Positions 26,621-57,054 of a stretch of 64,000 nucleotides of DNA are shown piece by piece. The DNA comes from a virus. The notes under the pieces are model-generated. The model was not told the DNA's origin. It worked only from the letters and a program-made list of their open reading frames with translations, and did no database searches. Made by a program: the position numbers and the translations under genes. Within the stretch, counting starts at the first letter, position 1. The number at the start of each line of letters is the position of its first letter. The DNA lies in the IMG/VR virus record IMGVR_UViG_3300023210_000015, positions 45,229 to 109,228 of that record. One strand, given 5' to 3'.

Positions 26621-27490
26621 ATGATTACTAAGAATGGTTTAACAAACGAAGACAAGCTAGCAGTTATTGAAGCTGCTTTGAATACTGATGAAGGTCGTGT
26701 CGCCCTTGCGCAAGCAATTGTCGAGCCAATTCGCCGTTCTTTGGAATACCAGGCCGTTGGTCGTAAGCTTATTATGGTCGACGAACTACCTCAAGGCGCT
26801 CTCGCTCGTTACGAGAGAGACGTTGCCGCAATCGCTCATGTGATTTCTCGTCGTGGTGCTGTTCCCGACCAGATTCAAGAAGGCGAAGAGGTCTTGGTTC
26901 CAACGTTCGAAATCGCCGCTCACCCAACTGTACGTTTGAGTGAAATCAAAGCTCGTCGTTTCTACATTGTAGATAGAGCGCAGATTAAGGCAAAAGAGGC
27001 TATTCAAAAAGAGGAAGATACCAATATTTTCAACGCATTGATCGCTGCTGCCACTAACCGTGGTACGCAAGTTGTTGTCAACGTTGGAGCTTTGAGTATC
27101 AACTCGTTGAACACGGCGTATCGTCTGATCGAACAGCATGACCTAGTTGCAACAAAGGTCGTTCTGCACGCGAATCAGTTTGCTACAATCCGTATCTTTG
27201 GCAAAGATTTCTACGATGAGGCAACTCAGCGTGAAATCATCACAACTGGCCTTTACGGTCACTTGTGGACTGCCGATATCCACGTTTCCAGTCGTATGGA
27301 CACGGATACGGTCCTCGTTGTTGCCTCGCCTGACACAGTGGGTGCGTTCCCCATCCGTCAGGATATTACAGTTCTTCCCGCCGATGATCCCAAGAAATTG
27401 CGTCTTGGCTGGGTGATCTATGAAGAGGTTGGCATCGTTGTGTTGAACGATTACGCTCTAAGCATAATCGAAGTATCAACAGCTAGCTAA
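26621..27490 (+). CDS. Major capsid protein, HK97 fold, 289 aa
   Basis: The main shell protein. The sequence has the pattern of HK97-type capsid proteins from aquatic phages: VPTFEIAAHPTVRLSEIKARRFYIVDRAQIKAKEAIQKEEDTNIF is split here only in description; the E-loop/spine region lies at about 88-140, followed by an A-domain-like part (VVLHANQFATIRIFG, DTVLVVASPDTVGAFPIRQD). The N-terminal arm (residues 1-45) carries NTDEGRVALAQAIVEP, which recurs in small proteins at 40241 and, less closely, 40792. AGGAG precedes the ATG, GC content is raised, and a strong terminator follows. Confidence 0.88.
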   Translation: MITKNGLTNEDKLAVIEAALNTDEGRVALAQAIVEPIRRSLEYQAVGRKLIMVDELPQGALARYERDVAAIAHVISRRGAVPDQIQEGEEVLVPTFEIAAHPTVRLSEIKARRFYIVDRAQIKAKEAIQKEEDTNIFNALIAAATNRGTQVVVNVGALSINSLNTAYRLIEQHDLVATKVVLHANQFATIRIFGKDFYDEATQREIITTGLYGHLWTADIHVSSRMDTDTVLVVASPDTVGAFPIRQDITVLPADDPKKLRLGWVIYEEVGIVVLNDYALSIIEVSTAS

Positions 27491-27578: not shown

Positions 27579-29303
27579 ATGCATAAAAGAAAAATATTCA
27601 ACTTTGAATCTGTTATTTTAGATCATTTAACTATAGAAAAAGAAGGATATCCTCCTGTTCAATATAGTAATGGTTCTGCGAAATTTATTTGGGCCACCTG
27701 TAGATATTGCGGTGAACCTCATCGTTTGCGTAAATGTTTTTTCTATAGAAGCGGATCAGCATGTCACAAAGAGTGTAGAATAGAAGAACAGAAACAACAA
27801 GTGTCTCCATTCGCTGATAAAAAAGTTAGGAAAAAAGCCGAAGAAACTAATCTCAAAAAATATGGAGTTAAACATGCTGCCTCTAATCCTAAAATTCGTT
27901 CTAAAATTTCTAAAACTAAAAAAACTGAATTTTCTAAAAACAAAACGAAGCAAACGAATTTACAAAAATATGGTGTTGAAAATGTATTTCAAAATCCTGA
28001 AATAAAAAACAAAATAGCTGCTACTAACAAAAAACGCTATGGATACAAATCTCCTATTCAAAACCAGTCAATCATGGATAAAATACAAAAAACTAATCTC
28101 AATAAATTTGGTTTTATCAATCCAATGCAGAATGATGTCGTAAAAGAAAAAGCCGTAGCAACCAGTATGGACAGATATAATAAACCAAATCCTATGCAAA
28201 ATGCAAAAATTGCCAAACAAACATCTATTTCTCTTAAAACAACTATAAAAAATAATGTTTCTGGTAATTATAATTTAATCAATTTGTTGCGCGGTAAATC
28301 CTTTTGGAGTATGTTAAAAAAAGAAGATATAACGTTATTAGAAATATGTGATTATTTTAATATAAATTATGGCAGCTTAACTGCCCACTTAGTTCAAGAT
28401 GAATTTAAAAATAAATATTACAGTATTTACTCTTTCCCAACGCAGCAAAAACAAAAAGAATTAATCAATTGTATTAAAAAAATGGGGATACGCGATAATC
28501 AAATTATAATTAACACCAGAAAAGTAATTTCTCCTCTAGAACTTGACATATATATACCTCATTTAAATGTGGCTATAGAATTCAATGGAAGTTATTGGCA
28601 TTCAGAAGCAATTCTTTCTTCTATAGAGGCTAGAAATAAACACATACATAAAACGAAATTATGCCGAGATAAAGGAATATTTTTATTACATATCTTTGAG
28701 AATAATTGGCATCAGAAAAAACAACAACTATTGAACTATATAAAGTCCAAACTGGGTCTAAATCAAAATAGAATCGCGGCCAGAAAATGTACGATAGATC
28801 ATACGAATGCTAAAGATTTTATCGACACTAATCATATACAGGGGTATGGTCGTGGAACAATAAAATATTTCAATTTGAGATATGACGGAAAAATTATTGG
28901 CAGCATGACAGCTTCGTTGCATCACAGACAAAAAGACGCTAATGTTATTTTAAATAGACTTTGTTTCTGTAGTGATACGACTATACAAGGAGGAGGGCGT
29001 AGGCTATTTAAGTATTTTGAACTTTGGGCACGAGAACAAAATTATAAAAATATTATATCGTGGTCAGATAATAGTTGGACTGACGGTAACATATATCCTA
29101 TTTTGGGATTTAAAAAAGAGCATGCATATGGACCTGATTATTTTTACTGGGATATAAAAAGTAAAAAATATTTCTCTAAACAATCTAAACAAAAGAGTAA
29201 AATTGGTTGTCCAAAAGATATGACGGAACATGAATATTGTATGCAGATGGGTCTTTACAGAATTTGGGATTGCGGAAAAATTCGTTGGATATATGATTTG
29301 TAA
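27579..29303 (+). CDS. Free-standing homing endonuclease with Vsr-like nuclease and DNA-binding repeats, 574 aa
   Basis: A Cys-containing N-terminal domain (CRYCGEPHRLRKC...CHKEC) is followed by about four repeats of a 35-40-residue unit of the type TNLKKYGVKHAASNPKIRSK (residues about 88-215), known from phage mobile endonucleases as sequence-reading modules. A Vsr/DUF559-type PD-(D/E)xK nuclease follows (ELDIYIPHLNVAIEFNGSYWH, about 318-345, then HKTKLCRDKGIFLLHIFEN). A C-terminal GNAT-like or substrate-recognition region ends in a basic tail. Insertion right behind the capsid gene, after a terminator and with its own TATAAT box (27545-27550), is typical of selfish genes. Confidence 0.82.
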   Translation: MHKRKIFNFESVILDHLTIEKEGYPPVQYSNGSAKFIWATCRYCGEPHRLRKCFFYRSGSACHKECRIEEQKQQVSPFADKKVRKKAEETNLKKYGVKHAASNPKIRSKISKTKKTEFSKNKTKQTNLQKYGVENVFQNPEIKNKIAATNKKRYGYKSPIQNQSIMDKIQKTNLNKFGFINPMQNDVVKEKAVATSMDRYNKPNPMQNAKIAKQTSISLKTTIKNNVSGNYNLINLLRGKSFWSMLKKEDITLLEICDYFNINYGSLTAHLVQDEFKNKYYSIYSFPTQQKQKELINCIKKMGIRDNQIIINTRKVISPLELDIYIPHLNVAIEFNGSYWHSEAILSSIEARNKHIHKTKLCRDKGIFLLHIFENNWHQKKQQLLNYIKSKLGLNQNRIAARKCTIDHTNAKDFIDTNHIQGYGRGTIKYFNLRYDGKIIGSMTASLHHRQKDANVILNRLCFCSDTTIQGGGRRLFKYFELWAREQNYKNIISWSDNSWTDGNIYPILGFKKEHAYGPDYFYWDIKSKKYFSKQSKQKSKIGCPKDMTEHEYCMQMGLYRIWDCGKIRWIYDL

Positions 29304-35876: not shown

Positions 35877-36878
35877 ATGGCAATAAGCGCAATAGCAGAT
35901 TTTCAAGGAACATGGGTACAAGGTACATCTAGCTCTCTATTAATCCGAATCACGGATTTTGAAGGTTTTCCTATCGATCCAGAAGATATTGTTGTATCTA
36001 TAGACACGGCTGGCGGTACAGCAGTATTGACAAATGTAATTCCTGAAAAAGTGGAAATCGGTTTCTACGTTTATGAGTGGGAAATTCCTGCAAATCAAAT
36101 TGTTGGTCAATATGATGTAACATGGGAATTCACCACAGAAGATGGTCCACAAACTGAACTACAAGAGATTGTTGTTGTAGCTGATGGAGAAAATTCTGAT
36201 ATCTATAGTGGTAGACCTGGCGATTTATTGCGTAATCTAGAATATAGAATCGCATGTGCCCAAAACATACCAGTTTATTACGAACAGTGCAAACCTTCTC
36301 AAGACAAAAGAACCTACTACTGCACTTTTCCAAGATGGAATCAAACTCCTGGAATTCGCGTATATCGTAATAAGACGAATATGATGACTACAGATGATAT
36401 GGGAGTTGACTATTCTAATGGTAGAATCGTGTTTAATGAAACACTGACTCAATATGACGAAGTGTATGTGGACTATAATTTTAGATGGTTTACGGGAGAA
36501 GAATTGAATCAGTTTCTCAGAGATGCTGTGGGAGAATTAAATCTATATCCAGGTGTTACGGATTACAATCTCAATTCGTTCCCGGATAGATGGACAAAGG
36601 CTATCGTCCTGTCTGCTGCTGTAGATGCGTTAAGAAAAATCATGCTTTGTTTGAACTTCCAACAGCCTGCACAGGTATTCGGCGGAACAGAAGCTGCCGG
36701 TGAAAAATTCTCTAATTTTGACACGCTAAAGAAAAACTATGAAGAAGAAGTAACAAAAATGCTAGAGCAGAAAAAGTATGGCCCATACCCAAGAACTAAT
36801 GCTATCGTTGTGCCTGAATATACCCTACCTGGTGGACGCTCGCGTTGGTTTCGTTACCTCTTTTCCTCAGGTGTCTAA
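35877..36878 (+). CDS. Virion structural protein, neck or connector type, 333 aa
   Basis: The N-terminal 100 residues look like an Ig-like beta sandwich (SSLLIRITDFEGFPIDPEDIVVSI, VGQYDVTWEFTTEDG). A middle domain (PGIRVYRNKTNMMTTDDMGVDYSNGRIVFN) resembles a small barrel, and the C-terminal part is helical (GEELNQFLRDAVGELNLYP, DRWTKAIVLSAAVDALRK), as in phage head-tail connector proteins. AAAGGA precedes the ATG. It has one clear 5' gap and is followed by the homing endonuclease-methyltransferase gene. Structural role is likely, exact position uncertain. Confidence 0.6.
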   Translation: MAISAIADFQGTWVQGTSSSLLIRITDFEGFPIDPEDIVVSIDTAGGTAVLTNVIPEKVEIGFYVYEWEIPANQIVGQYDVTWEFTTEDGPQTELQEIVVVADGENSDIYSGRPGDLLRNLEYRIACAQNIPVYYEQCKPSQDKRTYYCTFPRWNQTPGIRVYRNKTNMMTTDDMGVDYSNGRIVFNETLTQYDEVYVDYNFRWFTGEELNQFLRDAVGELNLYPGVTDYNLNSFPDRWTKAIVLSAAVDALRKIMLCLNFQQPAQVFGGTEAAGEKFSNFDTLKKNYEEEVTKMLEQKKYGPYPRTNAIVVPEYTLPGGRSRWFRYLFSSGV

Positions 36879-37004
36879 AAATACATCGCTTATGGCTCGG
36901 AAACTGCCATTTCCATCATCTCATATAACTATCACTAAAGTTTTTCTCTACTCGTACCGATAACATATATATATAGGGACTATAATGTAATCAAAGGAGA
37001 AAAT
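36879..37004 (+). promoter_or_regulatory. Intergenic region with candidate promoter for the endonuclease-methyltransferase gene
   Basis: Contains CCGATAACATATATATATA at 36957-36975 and a TATAAT box at 36981-36986 within ACTATAATGT, 19 bp before the ATG at 37005. No canonical -35 is seen at the expected distance. The same ACTATAATGT sequence precedes the homing endonuclease at 27579 and the pilin-like gene at 49099. Confidence 0.5.
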
Positions 37005-39131
37005 ATGCCAGCGAAAGGACAAAAATTATCAGAACAAAGTGTCACTTTAATGAAGGACAATAAAAGAAAACGTTTATTAAATCAATATAAATGGGATTTA
37101 GTTAAACCTTATTTGGATATAAATCTTTCTTTATCTTCTAGGGGGCGTAAGCGTCATTTTATTACATTGAGACAATTTAAAGAATACATTGAAAGCGGAC
37201 TAAGTATAAGAGAAATACAAAAATTAACATCTAAAAATCTCGTTTCGTTTTATAGCATATTATGCCAAGGAAAAATTGACCTTAGTAAAAATGAATTTAT
37301 ACAACAATATGAAAGTGGAAAACCTCTCGAAGAAATAGCGGAAGATAATAAGATTAGCAAAGATTATATCGGGTATTTAAGACAGTTATATCGAATCAAA
37401 TCTAAAGGGGCGAAGTTTATTCGCCGCAAAGAAACTGAAACACCGTTAACACAGAGACAAATTGAAATATTATATGGCTCTATGCTAGGTGATGCCCAAC
37501 GCTTAGGTGGAGCGGGTGTCCTTTTTCGACAAGGAGGGGAACAAAAAGATTACTTATTGTGGAAATATAAAGAATTTGAGAGCGTTGCTTCTCCTGATTC
37601 TTTAAAATCAACACATTCTATTGATTTTAGGTCGGAAACAGAAATAACATCTTGGTCATTTTATACTTTTGCTAATACGGATATCGAAAAATGTATTTCA
37701 TCATTTTATCAAGTTGATCCTAATGATTCCTCGAAAAAAGTGAAAGAAGTTTCTCGTGACATTTTAAATCAACTGACTCCATTATCGCTGTCCGTTTGGT
37801 TTATGGACGATGGGCAGACAGACTTCCAACACAGATCGATTGTGAAGGGGAACAATAGTAACCCGACTTGTAATATATGTACTGATTCTTTTTCTAAAAA
37901 AAGTTGTGAAAATATAAAAGAATGGTTTAAAGAAAAGTTTGATATTGATGTCAATATCAAAGATCATCCTTTAAAATATAGAATGGGATATCGAATACGC
38001 ATGAATGCCAAGAATACAAAGCAATTCATAGATTTAATTTCTCCACATATATTGCCCATGTTTCAGTATAAAACTGATTATGAGTCATATAAAAATAAAA
38101 GATTAGAATTGCAAAAACAAGAAATAGATTATGGGAAAATCATGAAGTGTCCATTAGGTGTTGATTTCAAAATGCTTACTGCGAAAGAACAAAGCGGATA
38201 CATTGAAAACCTTGTTGTATCATTTTACAAAGGTGGTTTTAATGCTTTGATGGATGACCCAAAAACTATACAAAATCATATGAATGCTGTTTTAAAGGTG
38301 AACCCGAATAATTTAATTAAAGATGATTTTATTTCGTTTTCAAATGTTGGCAATCGATTTTTAATGGCTCATTTTCCGAACTATTGGGATGCCAAGGCGA
38401 AGGGGAATAAGTCACCAAGAGAAATTTTTGAAAACAAGAAATATTTATCAGAAATTATACGTAAAATAATCACAAATGGAACTTTTCCAAATAAAAAAGA
38501 AATATTAAAGTCGTTGAAACGATATCGTGGGAATAAGGCCGCCAGTGGATTTATGCCCTGTGTTGCCAAATCAATATATCATAAATATTGTGATAAAAAT
38601 TCAAAAGTTATTGATTTTTGCGCTGGGTATGGAGGTAGATTGTTCGGTGCATTTGCTTGTGAAAAGGTGTTTTCTTATACTGGTATAGAAATTAATTTTA
38701 AAACATATTATGGTTTACACGATCTGTACAAAACATTGAGAGAAAAATCGGGTGAAAGCAAAGAAATGAGTCTTCTTAATCAGGATAGTATTATTGGTAT
38801 GAAACAATTTAAAGATAATACTTTTGATTTCTGTTTTACTTCTCCTCCCTATTTTGATGCAGAAGAATATGAAGATAGTCAATTGCAAAGTTCTCAAAAG
38901 TATGATACATATGGAGAGTGGTTTGAAGAATATCTAATTAAATGCGTTCAAGAGGCAACGAGAATTTCTAGAAAAGTAGCAATTGATATTGCTAATACTG
39001 GTGGATACCAGATCGCTGACGATCTTGAAAGGTGGTTAAATAAAAATAATTATAATTTTTCACAGGACCAAATTAGGATGCCAAGATATGATGGCAAATT
39101 TAGATTTGAACCAATTTTTGTCATCGAATAA
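37005..39131 (+). CDS. LAGLIDADG homing endonuclease fused to a DNA methyltransferase, 708 aa
   Basis: Residues 1-145 hold two helix-turn-helix-like repeats (YIESGLSIREIQKLTSKN; YESGKPLEEIAEDNKISKDY). Residues 150-365 are a LAGLIDADG endonuclease of the intron type with motifs ILYGSMLGDAQRL (about 155-167) and LSVWFMDDGQTDF (about 262-274). Residues 500-708 are an S-adenosylmethionine-dependent DNA methyltransferase: motif I VIDFCAGYGGRLFG (about 535), motif II-like TGIEINFKTYYG, and motif IV FTSPPYFD (about 611). TSPPY is typical of amino-methyltransferases (N4-cytosine or N6-adenine). AAAGGAG precedes the ATG. All three parts lie in one frame without an obvious break. Confidence 0.85.
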   Translation: MPAKGQKLSEQSVTLMKDNKRKRLLNQYKWDLVKPYLDINLSLSSRGRKRHFITLRQFKEYIESGLSIREIQKLTSKNLVSFYSILCQGKIDLSKNEFIQQYESGKPLEEIAEDNKISKDYIGYLRQLYRIKSKGAKFIRRKETETPLTQRQIEILYGSMLGDAQRLGGAGVLFRQGGEQKDYLLWKYKEFESVASPDSLKSTHSIDFRSETEITSWSFYTFANTDIEKCISSFYQVDPNDSSKKVKEVSRDILNQLTPLSLSVWFMDDGQTDFQHRSIVKGNNSNPTCNICTDSFSKKSCENIKEWFKEKFDIDVNIKDHPLKYRMGYRIRMNAKNTKQFIDLISPHILPMFQYKTDYESYKNKRLELQKQEIDYGKIMKCPLGVDFKMLTAKEQSGYIENLVVSFYKGGFNALMDDPKTIQNHMNAVLKVNPNNLIKDDFISFSNVGNRFLMAHFPNYWDAKAKGNKSPREIFENKKYLSEIIRKIITNGTFPNKKEILKSLKRYRGNKAASGFMPCVAKSIYHKYCDKNSKVIDFCAGYGGRLFGAFACEKVFSYTGIEINFKTYYGLHDLYKTLREKSGESKEMSLLNQDSIIGMKQFKDNTFDFCFTSPPYFDAEEYEDSQLQSSQKYDTYGEWFEEYLIKCVQEATRISRKVAIDIANTGGYQIADDLERWLNKNNYNFSQDQIRMPRYDGKFRFEPIFVIE

Positions 39132-43398: not shown

Positions 43399-45549
43399 GT
43401 GAAGGAAAGAGAGGAGATAATTCGTAAGTATAGAAGTATGGAGAATTTGTTTAAATTGGGTCAAGACATGCCGATAGAGCCTGCGCCCCAAGAAGGCGAA
43501 GTGCAACCTGTACAGCCTCAAATGGCTGGAGAATTAATCACATATGTTAACCATGGTAGAGCGGGTCTGTATTTGGCTGTTGAAATCAAAACCCAAGACC
43601 CCGAAGCCAAACAAGGCATTGTCACTAAATTAACGGTTGGATCAGATTATAGAGAATTTAGGGGCAAATTTACCAAATTAATAACAGAAGAAAATATTAA
43701 TACAGTACAATCGAATTTGGAAGAAGCGGCAGCAGCATATAATTTCACACTTGATCTTAGTGGATTACAATATGCCAGAGATACCCTATCGGCTGGCGAA
43801 ATAGATACTTCATCTCTCGTGGTGGCTGGCGATGTCGATGCGACACTCAAAAATATGCAGGAAAAACTGAGAGACGCAATTAGAAAAACGCCAGGAGATA
43901 AGCGTACTAAGATGATTTCTGGCCTTATTGACCAGCAATTAGAAACTCTTGAAAAAGCTGTTGATGACGAAACCAAATGGGAATTTTTGAAATCATTCTT
44001 GGCTCTTTCTCAAAGATTGTACAGATATAGTTTTGGCAACCAAATGCTTATTTGGTGGCAGACTGGCGGAAAAGCTGTTGATGTACAAGCGTTTAAAAAA
44101 TGGAAACAATTGGGTAGATATGTTAAAAAAGGAGCAACTGGAATTTCGATTTGGGTTCCTCTTAAAATAGATGCCAAAGATGCGTCGGGCAAAGTCATTA
44201 TGGACCCCGCCACAAAAGCCCCTAAAAAGAAATTAATCTTTGTAATCAAACCAGTTTTTGACATTGGGGATACGGCCAAATTCGAAGGCAAACAATTGGA
44301 GCGATGGAAGAAACAACATCCAGATGAAGAACCTTACGAAAGACCTCCTCGTGATGTTTGGATGAGCAAACAAAATGAAGATACAGACACTACGGTTACA
44401 CTTAGGGCTGCATTATTGTCGTGGATTGGGAAATTCGCCACAGATAAAGATTCTCCATATGCTGGCAGAAAAATTGATATCAACTTACATGCCGACACAG
44501 GGACTGCTGGCGGATGGTCTGCTGGTGGTAGGATTGAAATTGATAAAACCTCTGGTGGAGAAAGACAGCTATCTGCACTAATTCATGAACTTGCACACGA
44601 AGTTTTGCATTGGCAAGTTGATGGAACAAAATCAAAAGAAAAATATACAAAGAAACAGGTCGAAAGCGATGCAGAAGCTACGGCATTTATCGTTATGAAT
44701 GCATGGGGATTCAAATCTATTGAATATGTTGGAGCGTATATGAAATTATTGCGTATCGGTTCTAACCTGTTGAGAAGCAGAAGAAACATTGTTAATAAGG
44801 TTTCTCAAAACATTATAGAGGGCATGTGGAACGAAGTGCAGGCTATGAAGAATCAGGGTGATAACGTAGAAGCTAACTGGTATCATGATATAAAAATAGC
44901 AAAAATATTAGATTCTTTATTGAGTCCGATTAGTTCTATTGAAGCTAAAGTGTCTCATCCAAAGATGCTTAAAACCGCTTCTACGAAAGAGGCTAGAAGC
45001 AATATGGACCTTCCTGATGGTAAAACTGATAAAAAGATTTTTCAAAGAAAAAGTGACGCTCAAGCTTCTAATCAACATGGAAAATATTGTACCGTTTTTG
45101 ATGTGCAACGTTATGTAATGGATAGTTATATGTCCAAGGTCGCTCTTTCACAGACTAATGACAAGTTAACGGTATCTATTACTGTTGCTCACGGCTTCTT
45201 GGGTACAATTACATGGGATGAGTATTGGTACTATAATCTTGATGAAATGGATCAGGCACAAAAAACTTACAAAGCAGTAAACAAGATATTGAAAGATACG
45301 ATGGAGCAGTTCGTTGATGAAGAAATACCTACACCAATGTTTTGGGCTTTCTTGAAAAAGAAAACAGATGATGTCGATCCTGATGGAAGACAGCGCATCA
45401 ATATACCTGTTCTTAATTATGCTCGACAATATTCGGATTTACACAACCCTGACTGGCGTAGTAATTTGTATGGCACAAGATATCCAACTCACAAAGAAGA
45501 ATCTTATCGTCAATACTTAAACAGTCATGGACCGAATAGCCCAAAATGA
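43399..45549 (+). CDS. ArdC-like antirestriction protein with zinc metalloprotease motif, 716 aa
   Basis: Residues about 200-300 match the ArdC N-terminal ssDNA-binding domain (SQRLYRYSFGNQMLIWWQ, FKKWKQLGRYVKKGATGISI), and a zinc protease motif HELAHEVLHW lies at 396-405 with a downstream ESDAEATAF. This is the two-domain layout of ArdC, which protects incoming DNA from restriction. The extra 190-residue N-terminal domain and 250-residue C-terminus are unknown. At about 494-504 an internal ANWYHDIKIAK copies the MNWY N-terminal peptide of neighbouring proteins. The start is uncertain: GTG 43399 or ATG 43438, neither with an ideal site. A virion-packaged antirestriction protein is a plausible role. 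Confidence 0.78.
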   Translation: MKEREEIIRKYRSMENLFKLGQDMPIEPAPQEGEVQPVQPQMAGELITYVNHGRAGLYLAVEIKTQDPEAKQGIVTKLTVGSDYREFRGKFTKLITEENINTVQSNLEEAAAAYNFTLDLSGLQYARDTLSAGEIDTSSLVVAGDVDATLKNMQEKLRDAIRKTPGDKRTKMISGLIDQQLETLEKAVDDETKWEFLKSFLALSQRLYRYSFGNQMLIWWQTGGKAVDVQAFKKWKQLGRYVKKGATGISIWVPLKIDAKDASGKVIMDPATKAPKKKLIFVIKPVFDIGDTAKFEGKQLERWKKQHPDEEPYERPPRDVWMSKQNEDTDTTVTLRAALLSWIGKFATDKDSPYAGRKIDINLHADTGTAGGWSAGGRIEIDKTSGGERQLSALIHELAHEVLHWQVDGTKSKEKYTKKQVESDAEATAFIVMNAWGFKSIEYVGAYMKLLRIGSNLLRSRRNIVNKVSQNIIEGMWNEVQAMKNQGDNVEANWYHDIKIAKILDSLLSPISSIEAKVSHPKMLKTASTKEARSNMDLPDGKTDKKIFQRKSDAQASNQHGKYCTVFDVQRYVMDSYMSKVALSQTNDKLTVSITVAHGFLGTITWDEYWYYNLDEMDQAQKTYKAVNKILKDTMEQFVDEEIPTPMFWAFLKKKTDDVDPDGRQRINIPVLNYARQYSDLHNPDWRSNLYGTRYPTHKEESYRQYLNSHGPNSPK

Positions 45550-45929
45550 ACTGGTATACTTTAATAAAATCCGCCGCCCCAATAGGGCCAAACATGCAAG
45601 GTCTAGGTTATCTCGCTATTGGTCATGATTTCGATGTAGGAATCGAAAATCATTTATGGTTTTTAACTCTCGATGGAGATTTTATTTCTAAATTATCTAC
45701 AGGGCCATATGATGTACACGCTGGATGGGACAAGTGGGTGAGAAATGATAATCTAGGGACTATTGTTTCGGAAGGAAGAGTCGAGTGTGTAAAGGGGCAA
45801 AATGGATGTAAAGCTTCTTTGGTTCTTCGTCAAACTTTAACTCCACACTATAAAGAATTTGCTAGAAAAAAATCCTCTAAGATGCTGGATGAGAAGTTCA
45901 ATAACCCGGAAATATTAGTGATGAGATGA
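45546..45929 (+). CDS. MNWY-type protein, 127 aa
   Basis: ATGA overlap with the ArdC-like gene. Begins MNWYTLIKSAAPIGP. The body (GHDFDVGIENHLWFLTLDGDF, GTIVSEGRVECVKG) and the end (KMLDEKFNNPEILVMR) are similar to the protein at 50769 (KILDEKFHNPIILRYG), so the two are paralogues. Function unknown; grouping with ArdC-like and PcfJ-like genes suggests a shared cargo set. Confidence 0.75.
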   Translation: MNWYTLIKSAAPIGPNMQGLGYLAIGHDFDVGIENHLWFLTLDGDFISKLSTGPYDVHAGWDKWVRNDNLGTIVSEGRVECVKGQNGCKASLVLRQTLTPHYKEFARKKSSKMLDEKFNNPEILVMR

Positions 45930-48556
45930 ATTGGTATAAAACAATTTTTGCTGGGGCACAAGGAGATTATCTTCATTCGCTAGGAGCGAGTCAAGAAATC
46001 ATAGCTTATATTGTTTCTCAACCAAACATGCAATATCTCATTAATGCTTTTCGCAAGAATCCGCAGATGACATTAGAGCAAGTTAAAGAAATTAGCAATC
46101 CTAATAAAAGAGAATTAACAGAACTAGAATCTACGTTTATCGATACTTGTTGGGCCAATTCAGGGGTAGGAAAATGGGCGTTAATACAACTACAAAAAAT
46201 GTTTAGGACCGCTGAACGTACAGGTCAATCATTTTATCCTGATGTTTCGACAGCAATAGCTTACCGTTTAACTCTACAACATACTTGTGGCAGAATGAAC
46301 GAAGTCGGACAACAGTTCGCACAAATTGGAGACTGGGTTGTTCGTAGTGAAGACGAGTTCGATCTGTTAAATTATACCTATGAACAAGCCGTAGTCGCTT
46401 CTGATGCTTGGCATGAGCGAATGGCAAAAGGAGGAGCAGGAAAAGAATATGAAGAAAAAAATATTGTCTATGGACCAGAGTGGGTAAATAGGGGAGGGGA
46501 TAAGATCGACGAATTTGAAGGTTGGACCATACAAAATGTTAAAACTGCAAATGATTTAGAAGTAGAGGGACATTTGATGGATCACTGTTTTGCACCAGGG
46601 GCATTGGTAAGGACCAAGAGCGGATATAAGTCGATAGAAGACATCAAAACCGGGGAAGAAGTGCTATGTGAAGGGGGTGGTTTCAACCGGGTATTGAGAC
46701 TGTTCAAAAATCAATATAATGGGCCAATGATTAAATTTGCAACAAGGTTTGGCATCAAGGAAACATTGGTTACTTTAAATCATGAATTTGTGACCATGAT
46801 AAAAAACCAGAAACATTTTGAAAGTAAACACCAGTGTCGTAAACACATATGCGGACAGGTAAAACACAATTCAAACGAAATACATAATTTAAAGTGGGAA
46901 AAAATTGGCAATTTAAATTCATGGAGCTATTTACTGTCAACTGTTCCAAGGCAATTTGCTGATATCAATACTGTTAAAGTACCAGAGCAATATACAAATA
47001 GTAGAAGAAGAGGAAACAGGATATATACTGTGAATTCTGATTTTTTATGGATAATCGGCATGTTTATAGCAGAAGGGAGCGCTACTGGTGATCAAATTTC
47101 TTTTGGGCTTTCCAAGGATGAACGAAATTATGTAGATAAAATAATGTCATTCTTTACTGATAACGGATTTTATGCTAAAATTAGAAAAGATAAAGAAGAC
47201 TATGGTGGTATGGTTGTTGTTATAAGGAGTAGAATGCTTTCTGACTGGTTTTCAAATTGGCTAGGTAAAGGGTGCGATAATAAACATATCCCATCTGAGT
47301 TATTAAATCTCCCGAATGAGAAGGTGTATCACTTATATAAGGGGGTACTAGATGGAGATGGCTGTGAATCTCATAAGGTTTTAAATCAAACTTCGCCTGT
47401 TCTTGCTCTTCAGATGACAGAAATTGGTCTTCGACTGGGAATCGTGCCGACAATTTCTCATCGCACTAATAAGGGTAAAAAAGATACATATCCTATTGAG
47501 GGAATAGACACATCTTTAAGTTACAAAAAAAGTAAAGTTGAGAAACAAAATATATGGAACTTAGATAATAACCTGTTAATCCATCCACACGTATTCGAAA
47601 AGGTAAAATATACTGGTCCTGTGTATAATTTAGAGGTAGAAAACGTTCATTCCTACACGATACAAAACATATTAGTCCATAATTGTGTCGGTGGTTATTG
47701 TGATGATGTAGAACGTGGAGACTCAATAATATATTCATTGCGTGATCCTAAAAATATGCCTCATGTAACTATAGAGGTTGATGGTCATGAGGGCGGCGTA
47801 AATCAGGTGCAGGGTCACAGCAACAGTGAACCAAAAGATAAATATAAAGACATGATCAAACACTGGATTCAAAATGATAAAAATTCTCCTAAATTTATGG
47901 ATGATCCGGAAGAAGGTATACTTAAAGGATATTGGGAGTTAAGAAACTTAAGAGATATGAGTCCAAGATTGTTATTGGAATCCCTAGAGAGCCGTGTCGC
48001 TGGAGGAGATGAATATGGTCTGAGGCATGGTGATATTTATTATGATATGACAAATGTATTTGATCTTGCCTGGCGTTCTGTTGGAAAAAATGCACAGTAT
48101 GGCATGTATGCTGGCGATGGCGGTCTTGGTGAATTTATGGTTGAGGCTGCTTTAGATAGTGACGATTTATCTAAAGAAGATGATAATAAAAAATGTCTTC
48201 GTAGTCTTATTGACGAGATGACACAGGTGGAAGAAGATTCCAGAGACGAGTATCAACGACAGCATATAGATGTCGGTATTCCATATCCGCAAGAAGAAGA
48301 ATATGAAAACCCGGCAGAATATGAAGAAGCTTTGGAAGATTATCAAAAACAAGAGGATGAATTATTAAGTGGGATGTTCCCTTTTCCTTGGGTAACATTG
48401 CTTTGGCAAAAAATTCAAGAAAAATTTCAACAAAGATATGATCAAGATTTTACCAAATGGTATGAAGAGTACCAAGAACGAAGAAGAGAAGAGATGAAAG
48501 AACGAGAGAGACTGCGTGAACTAAACCGTGAACCAAAAACGATATTGGATGATTGA
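45926..48556 (+). CDS. PcfJ-like protein with MNWYK start and an intein, 876 aa
   Basis: Begins MNWYKTIFAGAQGDY. The extein has the PcfJ-like signature, seen after splicing as EGHLMDH-CVGGYCDDVERGDSIIYSLRD followed by HVTIEVDG and VNQVQGHSN. PcfJ-like proteins are found on conjugative plasmids and phages; their activity is not established. Residues 221-586 are an intein placed within the conserved His-Cys motif. The C-terminal 150 residues are highly charged and helical (FTKWYEEYQERRREEMKERE). ATGA coupling to the upstream MNWY gene. Confidence 0.8.
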   Translation: MNWYKTIFAGAQGDYLHSLGASQEIIAYIVSQPNMQYLINAFRKNPQMTLEQVKEISNPNKRELTELESTFIDTCWANSGVGKWALIQLQKMFRTAERTGQSFYPDVSTAIAYRLTLQHTCGRMNEVGQQFAQIGDWVVRSEDEFDLLNYTYEQAVVASDAWHERMAKGGAGKEYEEKNIVYGPEWVNRGGDKIDEFEGWTIQNVKTANDLEVEGHLMDHCFAPGALVRTKSGYKSIEDIKTGEEVLCEGGGFNRVLRLFKNQYNGPMIKFATRFGIKETLVTLNHEFVTMIKNQKHFESKHQCRKHICGQVKHNSNEIHNLKWEKIGNLNSWSYLLSTVPRQFADINTVKVPEQYTNSRRRGNRIYTVNSDFLWIIGMFIAEGSATGDQISFGLSKDERNYVDKIMSFFTDNGFYAKIRKDKEDYGGMVVVIRSRMLSDWFSNWLGKGCDNKHIPSELLNLPNEKVYHLYKGVLDGDGCESHKVLNQTSPVLALQMTEIGLRLGIVPTISHRTNKGKKDTYPIEGIDTSLSYKKSKVEKQNIWNLDNNLLIHPHVFEKVKYTGPVYNLEVENVHSYTIQNILVHNCVGGYCDDVERGDSIIYSLRDPKNMPHVTIEVDGHEGGVNQVQGHSNSEPKDKYKDMIKHWIQNDKNSPKFMDDPEEGILKGYWELRNLRDMSPRLLLESLESRVAGGDEYGLRHGDIYYDMTNVFDLAWRSVGKNAQYGMYAGDGGLGEFMVEAALDSDDLSKEDDNKKCLRSLIDEMTQVEEDSRDEYQRQHIDVGIPYPQEEEYENPAEYEEALEDYQKQEDELLSGMFPFPWVTLLWQKIQEKFQQRYDQDFTKWYEEYQERRREEMKERERLRELNREPKTILDD
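46586..47683 (+). mobile_element. Intein with LAGLIDADG endonuclease in the PcfJ-like gene, 366 aa
   Basis: A canonical class 1 intein: starts CFAPGALVRTKSGYKSIEDI (Cys221), block B TLNHEF, ends VYNLEVENVHSYTIQNILVHN (Asn586) followed by Cys587. LAGLIDADG motifs are LWIIGMFIAEGSA (about 374-386) and LYKGVLDGDGCES (about 470-482). The insertion falls between His and Cys of the PcfJ signature, a typical active-site location. Confidence 0.94.
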
Positions 48557-55959: not shown

Positions 55960-57054
55960 ATGAGTAATAAAAGTAGAATAGCTTCGTTAGACCCAGGCAC
56001 AATGTTTTTACAAACGGCAGAATTGCAGGAAGATGGAAGCGTAAGCCTAAAATCTATTCGCAACGCCTTTGTTGAAGTGCAGGCCACCGAAGACATTGAA
56101 GATATATTAAAACAAAATAGTTGGCATTATGTAAAAGATGGCGATCAATACTTTGTTATAGGAGAGGATGCTCTTAAGGTGGCTCGTATGTTCCCTAACA
56201 AGGTCACTCTTCGTCGCCCTATGCAGGACGGTGTTTTGAACAAGGGCGAAGAAAAGAAAATGCTGATTATGGCTGAGTTGATTGACAGCGCTTTGGGTAA
56301 GGCTCCCGACAAAAACTCTGTCGTTTGCACATGTGTTTCTTCTGAATCTGCTGATGAGTCTGCTGATAGTCAATTCCACAGTGCCAGGCTGGAAGGCATG
56401 CTTGAAAGAAATGGTTGGAATGTTAAGGTTATCGAAGAGGGGTTGGGTATTATTCTGTCTGAGCGTCCTGTAGTTATTGACGAAGACGGTAAAGAATATC
56501 CGTATAGTGGTATTGGTATCAGCTTTGGTGCTGGCCGAACGAACTGTGTTTTGGCGTATAAAGGGCTATCTGTTGTTGGGGCATCGGTTGCTAGAAGCGG
56601 CGATTGGATTGATAAGCAAGTTTCTACACAAACCGGCACAGATATCGCTCAAGTCACTGCTAAAAAGGAACGAGAATTAGATTTCGATAACCTAAATTCG
56701 GATGATGATGTCATTTTTGCTTTAGATGTTTATTATACAGCAATGATTAAATATGTTATAGGCATTATAGCTAAAAAATTCATGAAAGTACGAAGTGAAT
56801 TTGATGCCCCATTAGATATAGTTGTGGCTGGCGGCACCAGTATGCCAAAAGGGTTTTGTAATAAGTTGAAAAAAGTTATAAGTGATTTAACTTTGCCATT
56901 CGAAATTAAAGATGTGAAACGTGCGTCTGAACCTAGAAACGCAGTTGTGAAAGGCTGTTTGACACAAGCCATCGCAACACAGAAGAAATTAGTGAAAAAT
57001 AAAGGAAAAGCCGCCCCAAAGGTTGAAAAAGAAGAAGTAGAAGAAGAGATATAA
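55960..57054 (+). CDS. Actin-like ATPase (ASKHA fold), 364 aa
   Basis: Three ASKHA motifs are seen in order: phosphate 1 ASLDPGTMFLQTA (about 8-20), phosphate 2 GIGISFGAGRTNCVLAYKG (about 184-202) and the adenosine motif IVVAGGTSMPKGF (about 287-299). In phosphate 2 the usual Asp is Ser188, so activity may be reduced. The size and the order suggest a ParM/Alp-like filament protein. Phage actins and tubulins place DNA or capsids in the cell or segregate plasmid-like prophages. The C-terminal tail is Lys/Glu-rich. AAGGAG precedes the ATG, with CCGATATTATAT 27 bp upstream. Confidence 0.75.
   Translation: MSNKSRIASLDPGTMFLQTAELQEDGSVSLKSIRNAFVEVQATEDIEDILKQNSWHYVKDGDQYFVIGEDALKVARMFPNKVTLRRPMQDGVLNKGEEKKMLIMAELIDSALGKAPDKNSVVCTCVSSESADESADSQFHSARLEGMLERNGWNVKVIEEGLGIILSERPVVIDEDGKEYPYSGIGISFGAGRTNCVLAYKGLSVVGASVARSGDWIDKQVSTQTGTDIAQVTAKKERELDFDNLNSDDDVIFALDVYYTAMIKYVIGIIAKKFMKVRSEFDAPLDIVVAGGTSMPKGFCNKLKKVISDLTLPFEIKDVKRASEPRNAVVKGCLTQAIATQKKLVKNKGKAAPKVEKEEVEEEI

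Follow-up and report, generated by a model that had tools for sequence, protein, structure and literature searches.

A single gene in the window, by which we mean the whole 64,000-nucleotide stretch of DNA that was analysed, part of a 109-kb virus record, raises the question of what a homing endonuclease and a DNA methyltransferase do in one polypeptide. The usual view is that a homing element is spared by its own nuclease either because its insertion removes the cut site or because this site has diverged in the carrier. A methyltransferase welded to, or lying beside, several homing nucleases suggests a third route to self-immunity. An earlier note on this DNA had proposed that such an enzyme would protect the cut site or the carrier genome by methylation and could act as a selfish, restriction-like element. 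Comparative evidence best supports a reading of this kind: the gene would be a restriction-like selfish element combining homing with a methylase.

Two enzymes in one frame

The 708-residue frame described in the earlier note is present as a single unbroken ORF, with AAAGGAG at 36993-36999 ahead of its ATG. It comprises the following features.

37005..39131, + strand: fusion gene of 708 aa, consisting of an HTH-like region, a LAGLIDADG nuclease and a DNA methyltransferase, in that order (ORF; homologue in L086; 54 non-redundant fusions)
37005..37439, + strand: N-terminal helical region, aa 1-145, with two HTH-like tri-helical units at aa 55-87 and 95-128 (AlphaFold2 secondary structure; HTH_23 aligned in L002)
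37461..38027, + strand: I-SceI-type LAGLIDADG nuclease domain, aa 153-341 (Pfam LAGLIDADG_2, PF03161, E = 5e-27; fold match to I-WcaI/I-SceI, E = 2e-12 and 4e-11)
37491..37493, + strand: first catalytic aspartate, D163, in LGDA, corresponding to the LGD motif of I-SceI (invariant in 25 fusions; I-SceI alignment)
37806..37811, + strand: second catalytic motif, D268-D269, in FMDDG (invariant in 25 fusions; I-SceI alignment)
38175..39125, + strand: DNA methyltransferase module, aa 391-707, with its own N-terminal domain at about aa 391-530 (family HMM; stand-alone homologues)
38613..38642, + strand: motif I, DFCAGYGGRL, for SAM binding (D537, G541, G543 and R545 invariant)
38838..38852, + strand: motif IV, TSPPY, for amino-methyltransferase catalysis (S613 and P615 invariant, P614 nearly invariant)

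The AlphaFold2 model of the protein is a confident two-domain model (pLDDT 84.6), with a pTM of 0.52 that leaves the arrangement of the domains uncertain. The two helix-turn-helix units claimed from the letters correspond to the two tri-helical units of this model; Pfam did not call them in the window protein and called HTH_23 at the aligned place in L002. A fold search with the predicted model revealed the resemblance of the nuclease half to I-WcaI and I-SceI, and a profile of 25 fusions aligned with I-SceI (E = 3e-34) across both motifs. The endonuclease with its two LAGLIDADG motifs is thus borne out, both motifs carrying their catalytic acids within an I-SceI fold.

In the C-terminal half, motif I starts at residue 537 and TSPPY at residue 612. 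The presence of a motif I of the FxGxG-like kind and of a motif IV of the (S/D/N)PPY type, both found family-wide, places this half among the amino (N4-cytosine/N6-adenine) methyltransferases. Pfam support from the single sequence was weak (0.008), with N6_N4_Mtase below the cutoff, and the methyltransferase assignment of the earlier note is upheld by PHROG matches (family 12517, 2e-14, and DNA methyltransferase families), by the match of the fusion-family profile to solved DNA methylases and by the fold, some of whose viral-model matches bear the name cytosine-N4-specific methyltransferase. Stand-alone homologues of 330-387 aa, about the length of the module, occur in Vibrio and Bacteroides phages. 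As judged from its motifs, this half appears to be a complete methyltransferase of the N4-cytosine type, an activity suggested by TSPPY. Also among the fold matches are predicted pithovirus proteins, named N4-cytosine methyltransferases, and an uncharacterised one from salmon gill poxvirus (A0A4D5XFF9, A0A0H4Y1D9), presumably through the methyltransferase half.

Alignment of 25 fusions, only about 20-25% identical, revealed invariant columns in the nuclease (GD 162-163, DDG 268-270) and in the methyltransferase (D537, G541, G543, R545, S613 and P615), and no catalytic motif is missing from either half; loss of catalytic residues in both halves is what the earlier note had named as fatal to its claim. 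Between close pairs, dN/dS was 0.04-0.13 in the methyltransferase domain and 0.06-0.20 in the nuclease domain; both are under purifying selection.

Pfam revealed no splicing domain in the window gene, which rules out an intein. NCBIfam gave no match above cutoff for the fusion, the PADLOC library returned only generic hits, to homing endonuclease and Type II methyltransferase entries, and an Rfam scan of the window and 12 relatives at the gathering score gave no match to known RNA families.

A modular family of nuclease-methyltransferase cassettes

The domain search suggested with the original claim returned a LAGLIDADG_2 nuclease for one half and, mainly through PHROG and profile matches, a DNA methyltransferase for the other, and the same fusion was found elsewhere, as that note had also advised looking for. 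A viral scan with the fusion as a single protein found nothing and alignment-based scans were needed; run over viral contigs, these revealed 54 single-ORF fusions of LAGLIDADG_2 to the methyltransferase, counted as non-redundant when their methyltransferases differed by >15%. With that many examples, the fusion is far beyond chance.

Other nucleases are fused to the same methyltransferase: LAGLIDADG_3 (L125, L224 and L494, with L487 by eye), a Vsr-like nuclease (L004 by Pfam; L293, L306, L308 and L311 by eye, L293 also having weak PHROG support as a homing endonuclease), a duplicated PD-(D/E)XK-like domain with zinc fingers (L395, L419 and L460, by eye) and an HNH-like region (L300, by eye). 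In two-gene versions, the methyltransferase lies beside a separate LAGLIDADG gene (L035, L488, L517), a NUMOD3/PD-(D/E)XK gene (L273, L276, L299, L482), a Vsr-like gene (L502) or an HNH gene (L510). Along the methyltransferase tree, the nuclease class switches 13 times or more, and the fusion represents a single branch within a large modular family, to which the two-gene versions also belong. The doubt raised with the first description, that relatives carry separate genes and that the fusion is an assembly error, therefore stands in its first part, as separate genes exist (L035, L273, L488, L517), and falls in its second: an assembly error is ruled out by the 54 fusions and by the full-length homologue in L086, 50% identical to the window protein from end to end.

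Some members depart from the usual layout. One frame (L254:3561-6878) encodes a LAGLIDADG domain followed by two tandem methyltransferases, and a 97-aa remnant (L429:4208-4498), in which an HTH-like start is joined to the last part of the methyltransferase, is an apparent internal deletion of the cassette. Three paralogous methyltransferases of the same family are clustered in L045 and L047, where no nuclease was detected. Between L106 and L305, the nuclease halves are closer (dS 0.61) than the methyltransferase halves (dS 1.96), which suggests recombination between the two modules. Five contigs (L099, L394, L396, L398, L399) are 99.98-100% identical over 4,304 bp; past this part, L099 runs on into the methyltransferase, and L394, L398 and L399 stop just inside it at the same base, through either a recent rearrangement or a shared assembly break.

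Sites behind structural genes

Three neighbouring genes of the window are needed to describe the position of the fusion.

26621..27490, + strand: major head protein gene (phrog_2522, 3e-62), whose homologue is the upstream neighbour of other fusions
27579..29303, + strand: a different homing endonuclease (DUF7487; phrog_3339, 2e-106), directly behind the window phage's own capsid gene
35877..36878, + strand: conserved 333-aa gene directly upstream of the fusion, candidate target of the window nuclease lineage (homologue directly upstream in L086, L087, L088, L093 and L549; no nuclease behind it in ten other loci)

A homologue of the major capsid gene lies directly upstream of every fusion except those of the window and L086, which follow the 333-aa gene in the structural-gene region. 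The gap from capsid gene to cassette is 54-522 nt (median 191; n = 70 loci, including some overlapping fetches of the same contig). In the window, the DUF7487 gene occupies the spot that the cassettes of relatives use. The capsid ORF is uninterrupted in all 70 scored fusion loci and the 333-aa ORF is intact in the window, so that the element is not borne by an intron or intein. Being intergenic and beside a conserved gene, with empty relatives in existence, it has the features of a free-standing phage homing endonuclease.

Capsid ORFs split by intron-like insertions with LAGLIDADG ORFs of the same family were observed in L116, L118, L125, L133, L145, L224 and L499. The split parts lie mostly in frames different from that of the nuclease, which speaks against inteins and for intron-like insertions; when L125, L133 and L499 were searched at a lax threshold, L133 gave one weak match to an Rfam group I intron. 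None of eight intron-like nucleases is fused to a methyltransferase. A strict rule by which intron nucleases lack a methyltransferase and intergenic ones need it is untenable, many intergenic nucleases having none.

A capsid-centred sample, from which duplicates and loci with <3 kb downstream were dropped, left 98 scored loci: 57 carried none of the four screened families, 23 LAGLIDADG only, two another homing endonuclease only, 15 a nuclease with the methyltransferase (as a pair or a fusion) and one a remnant. Among non-redundant methyltransferases, 70 of 70 behind the capsid gene had a nuclease in cis versus 6 of 65 elsewhere, in a pooled set that was seeded with fusions and ignores relatedness, which makes its counts non-independent and leaves P-values without phylogenetic correction; the capsid-centred sample gives the fairer picture. 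Methyltransferases of this family are common in phages with no accompanying nuclease, so that the family has other roles besides this pairing, a point against the reading favoured below. A third cassette site is perhaps the flank of an approximately 1,000-aa gene, behind which each of the Vsr-type fusions L293, L306 and L308 lies (the gene is 59% identical between L293 and L306).

The methyltransferase could be a shield against others, masking the conserved gene from rival homing endonucleases or the phage DNA from host restriction, with the nuclease as a passenger that gains by joining it. Relatives of the methyltransferase mostly lack a nuclease, a possible anti-restriction role has been suggested for orphan methylases of phages (PMC9957025), and different cassettes replace one another and even stack in tandem behind the same capsid gene (L098, L167, L262, L302). 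A lone protective gene should, however, be favoured at just this place, and a nuclease-free methyltransferase was found behind the capsid gene in none of 70 cases (none of the 15 intact ones in the capsid-centred sample). We consider such a shield quite improbable.

Comparison of the fusion carriers revealed a median identity of 76% for the capsid proteins and of 28% for each domain of the fusion. Nuclease and methyltransferase distances were correlated (r = 0.85, or 0.83 given capsid distance), each correlating with capsid distance at 0.36-0.41, and in 72 of 160 pairs with capsids >87% identical both fusion domains fell below about 32% identity. These values are best read as the replacement of whole cassettes behind a stable gene, with a little room left for fast divergence. 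In L459, one gene follows the capsid gene at a distance of 158 nt; of the 20 fusion loci with a matchable downstream gene, most have this gene 0.6-3.8 kb beyond the cassette. The empty sites, the nucleases found solo and the turnover behind capsid genes that are nearly identical suggest that the cassettes are mobile.

The lineage of the window follows the 333-aa gene. Its closest nuclease relatives lie behind this gene without a methyltransferase (L087, L088, L093 and L549; 44-49% for the first three), a frame-broken nuclease occupies the same position in L261/L561, and no nuclease was detected there in ten loci (L546-L548, L550, L553, L555-L559). In the nuclease tree, the window protein belongs to a starred clade of six, all behind the 333-aa gene, of which four are solo and two fused. 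The nuclease lineage thus goes with the site, and gain or loss of the methyltransferase took place inside that lineage. In L546-L548 (7733-9631), the 333-aa gene is followed by a PhoH-like ATPase ORF into which, judged by eye, an intein seems to be inserted.

This nesting bears on whether the methyltransferase gene was a mere landing site, invaded by a homing nuclease and leaving a joined frame of no functional meaning. A precedent is the LAGLIDADG insert in the mycobacteriophage Taj_79 methylase (PMC9957025), a family that also holds the ShiLan/HNH insert (PMC11855218). Like the window protein, Taj_79 joins LAGLIDADG and a DNA methylase in one phage protein, but its methyltransferase is unrelated, with motif IV first and motif I last, and a LAGLIDADG_1 domain of about 100 aa is inserted inside it. 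A common family was rejected, there being no significant similarity; the window protein has neither this methylase nor an internal insert. Here, several nuclease folds lie N-terminal to the same methyltransferase, and the two-gene versions keep the order. Moreover, the window fusion is nested among solo nucleases of the same site, and therefore the methyltransferase joined (or left) a resident nuclease, not the reverse. A landing site is thus a very unlikely account.

Proposed mechanism and known systems

We give slightly better than even weight to a free-standing homing element that leaves its target gene intact and is protected by its own methylation. The nuclease half would recognise a long site that lies within or close to a structural gene of high conservation, probably the 333-aa gene at 35877-36878 in the window and the major capsid gene in most relatives. 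Co-infecting phages without the element would be cut at that gene, and repair off the carrier genome would copy the element into the spot beside it. Unlike an intron or intein, the element lies next to the gene and leaves it unsplit; the carrier would thus keep an intact target, which the methyltransferase half would methylate, there or at a motif within it, allowing the carrier to escape cutting. We infer in this way cutting, methylation, a specificity shared by the two halves, self-protection and transfer on co-infection.

Homing is supported by the intact active sites, selection on both halves, intact neighbour genes, empty sites, solo nucleases, turnover and the recurrent coupling to several nuclease folds. 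Against its combination with methylation stand the solo LAGLIDADG genes often found behind intact capsid and 333-aa genes; intergenic homing therefore needs no methyltransferase, and methylation is an option, not a necessity, at these sites. The selfish, restriction-like element first proposed from the letters is accordingly favoured by recurrent pairing with several nuclease classes, location, empty sites, turnover and purifying selection, and must be amended on two points, as methylation is not obligatory (L087, L088 and L093 use the same site with no methyltransferase) and the fusion is not unique to the window phage.

Parts of this evidence are shared with the shield considered above and with phage-borne restriction-modification, by which a phage would methylate its own DNA and destroy co-infecting phages (marker or superinfection exclusion), to its own benefit and with gene conversion as an incidental effect. 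A nuclease and a methyltransferase in one polypeptide resemble Type IIG/IIC enzymes (PMC4081073), one methyltransferase family is used with several nuclease folds, and the presumed targets are essential, conserved virion genes. General restriction, however, would need neither a flank-restricted position nor empty sites nor turnover, and the nuclease lineage follows its site, be it the 333-aa or the capsid gene, with or without a methyltransferase. We regard restriction-modification as unlikely.

The homing element protected by methylation can be set beside known systems. Type IIG/IIC enzymes (BcgI, MmeI, BpuSI; PMC4081073) also carry a nuclease and a SAM-dependent methyltransferase in one chain, with motif I before motif IV, but they are short-site cellular restriction systems, whereas the window protein has a long-site homing fold at fixed phage loci. 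Its nuclease is of the LAGLIDADG type instead of a known restriction class, most often PD-(D/E)XK; Type II nucleases are grouped mainly as PD-(D/E)XK, HNH and GIY-YIG in a review from which the word LAGLIDADG is absent (PMC4081073). The authors of the Taj_79 study considered a restriction-modification role unlikely, LAGLIDADG enzymes not having been described in such systems (PMC9957025). The T4-like SegF, SegG and MobE ("intronless homing", PMC2988022) are likewise intergenic, beside conserved phage genes and with an uninterrupted target, but they are GIY-YIG or HNH enzymes with no methyltransferase, and no word beginning "methyl" occurs in that source. The T4 free-standing elements manage without methylation, and the separation of their cut and insertion sites is established (PMC2988022). 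The monomeric I-SceI and I-WcaI share the nuclease fold and both catalytic aspartates; they differ in being intron-encoded, with an intron that interrupts the site, and in having no methyltransferase.

The statement of the earlier note that no system of this form was described agrees with the open-licence literature, in which no such LAGLIDADG-methyltransferase element was found, the nearest being the unrelated Taj_79 methylase. The mechanism stands a fair chance of being a new class, the kinds already known being the free-standing homing element and the one-chain restriction-modification enzyme. Slightly short of an even chance, in our estimate, is a new class of homing element with self-immunity through methylation and not through interruption or mutation of the target, in which many cassettes, repeatedly built from unrelated nuclease folds and one methyltransferase family, would compete for positions beside the capsid gene and other structural genes of large phages.

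This widespread family links homing to restriction-modification, fields that are usually apart, and opens two old questions to testing: can restriction-modification systems evolve out of homing elements, and by what means can a free-standing element target an invariant essential gene that it leaves uninterrupted? If paired as proposed, long-site nucleases that each come with a protective methyltransferase would have practical use as DNA tools.

Elsewhere in the window, an 876-aa frame (45926-48556) with PcfJ-like, Hint/intein splicing and LAGLIDADG_3 matches is probably an intein in a PcfJ-like protein. A 716-aa protein (43399-45549) has an ArdC N-terminal (anti-restriction) domain, and an actin-like protein of the Volactin family (3e-61) is encoded at 55960-57054.
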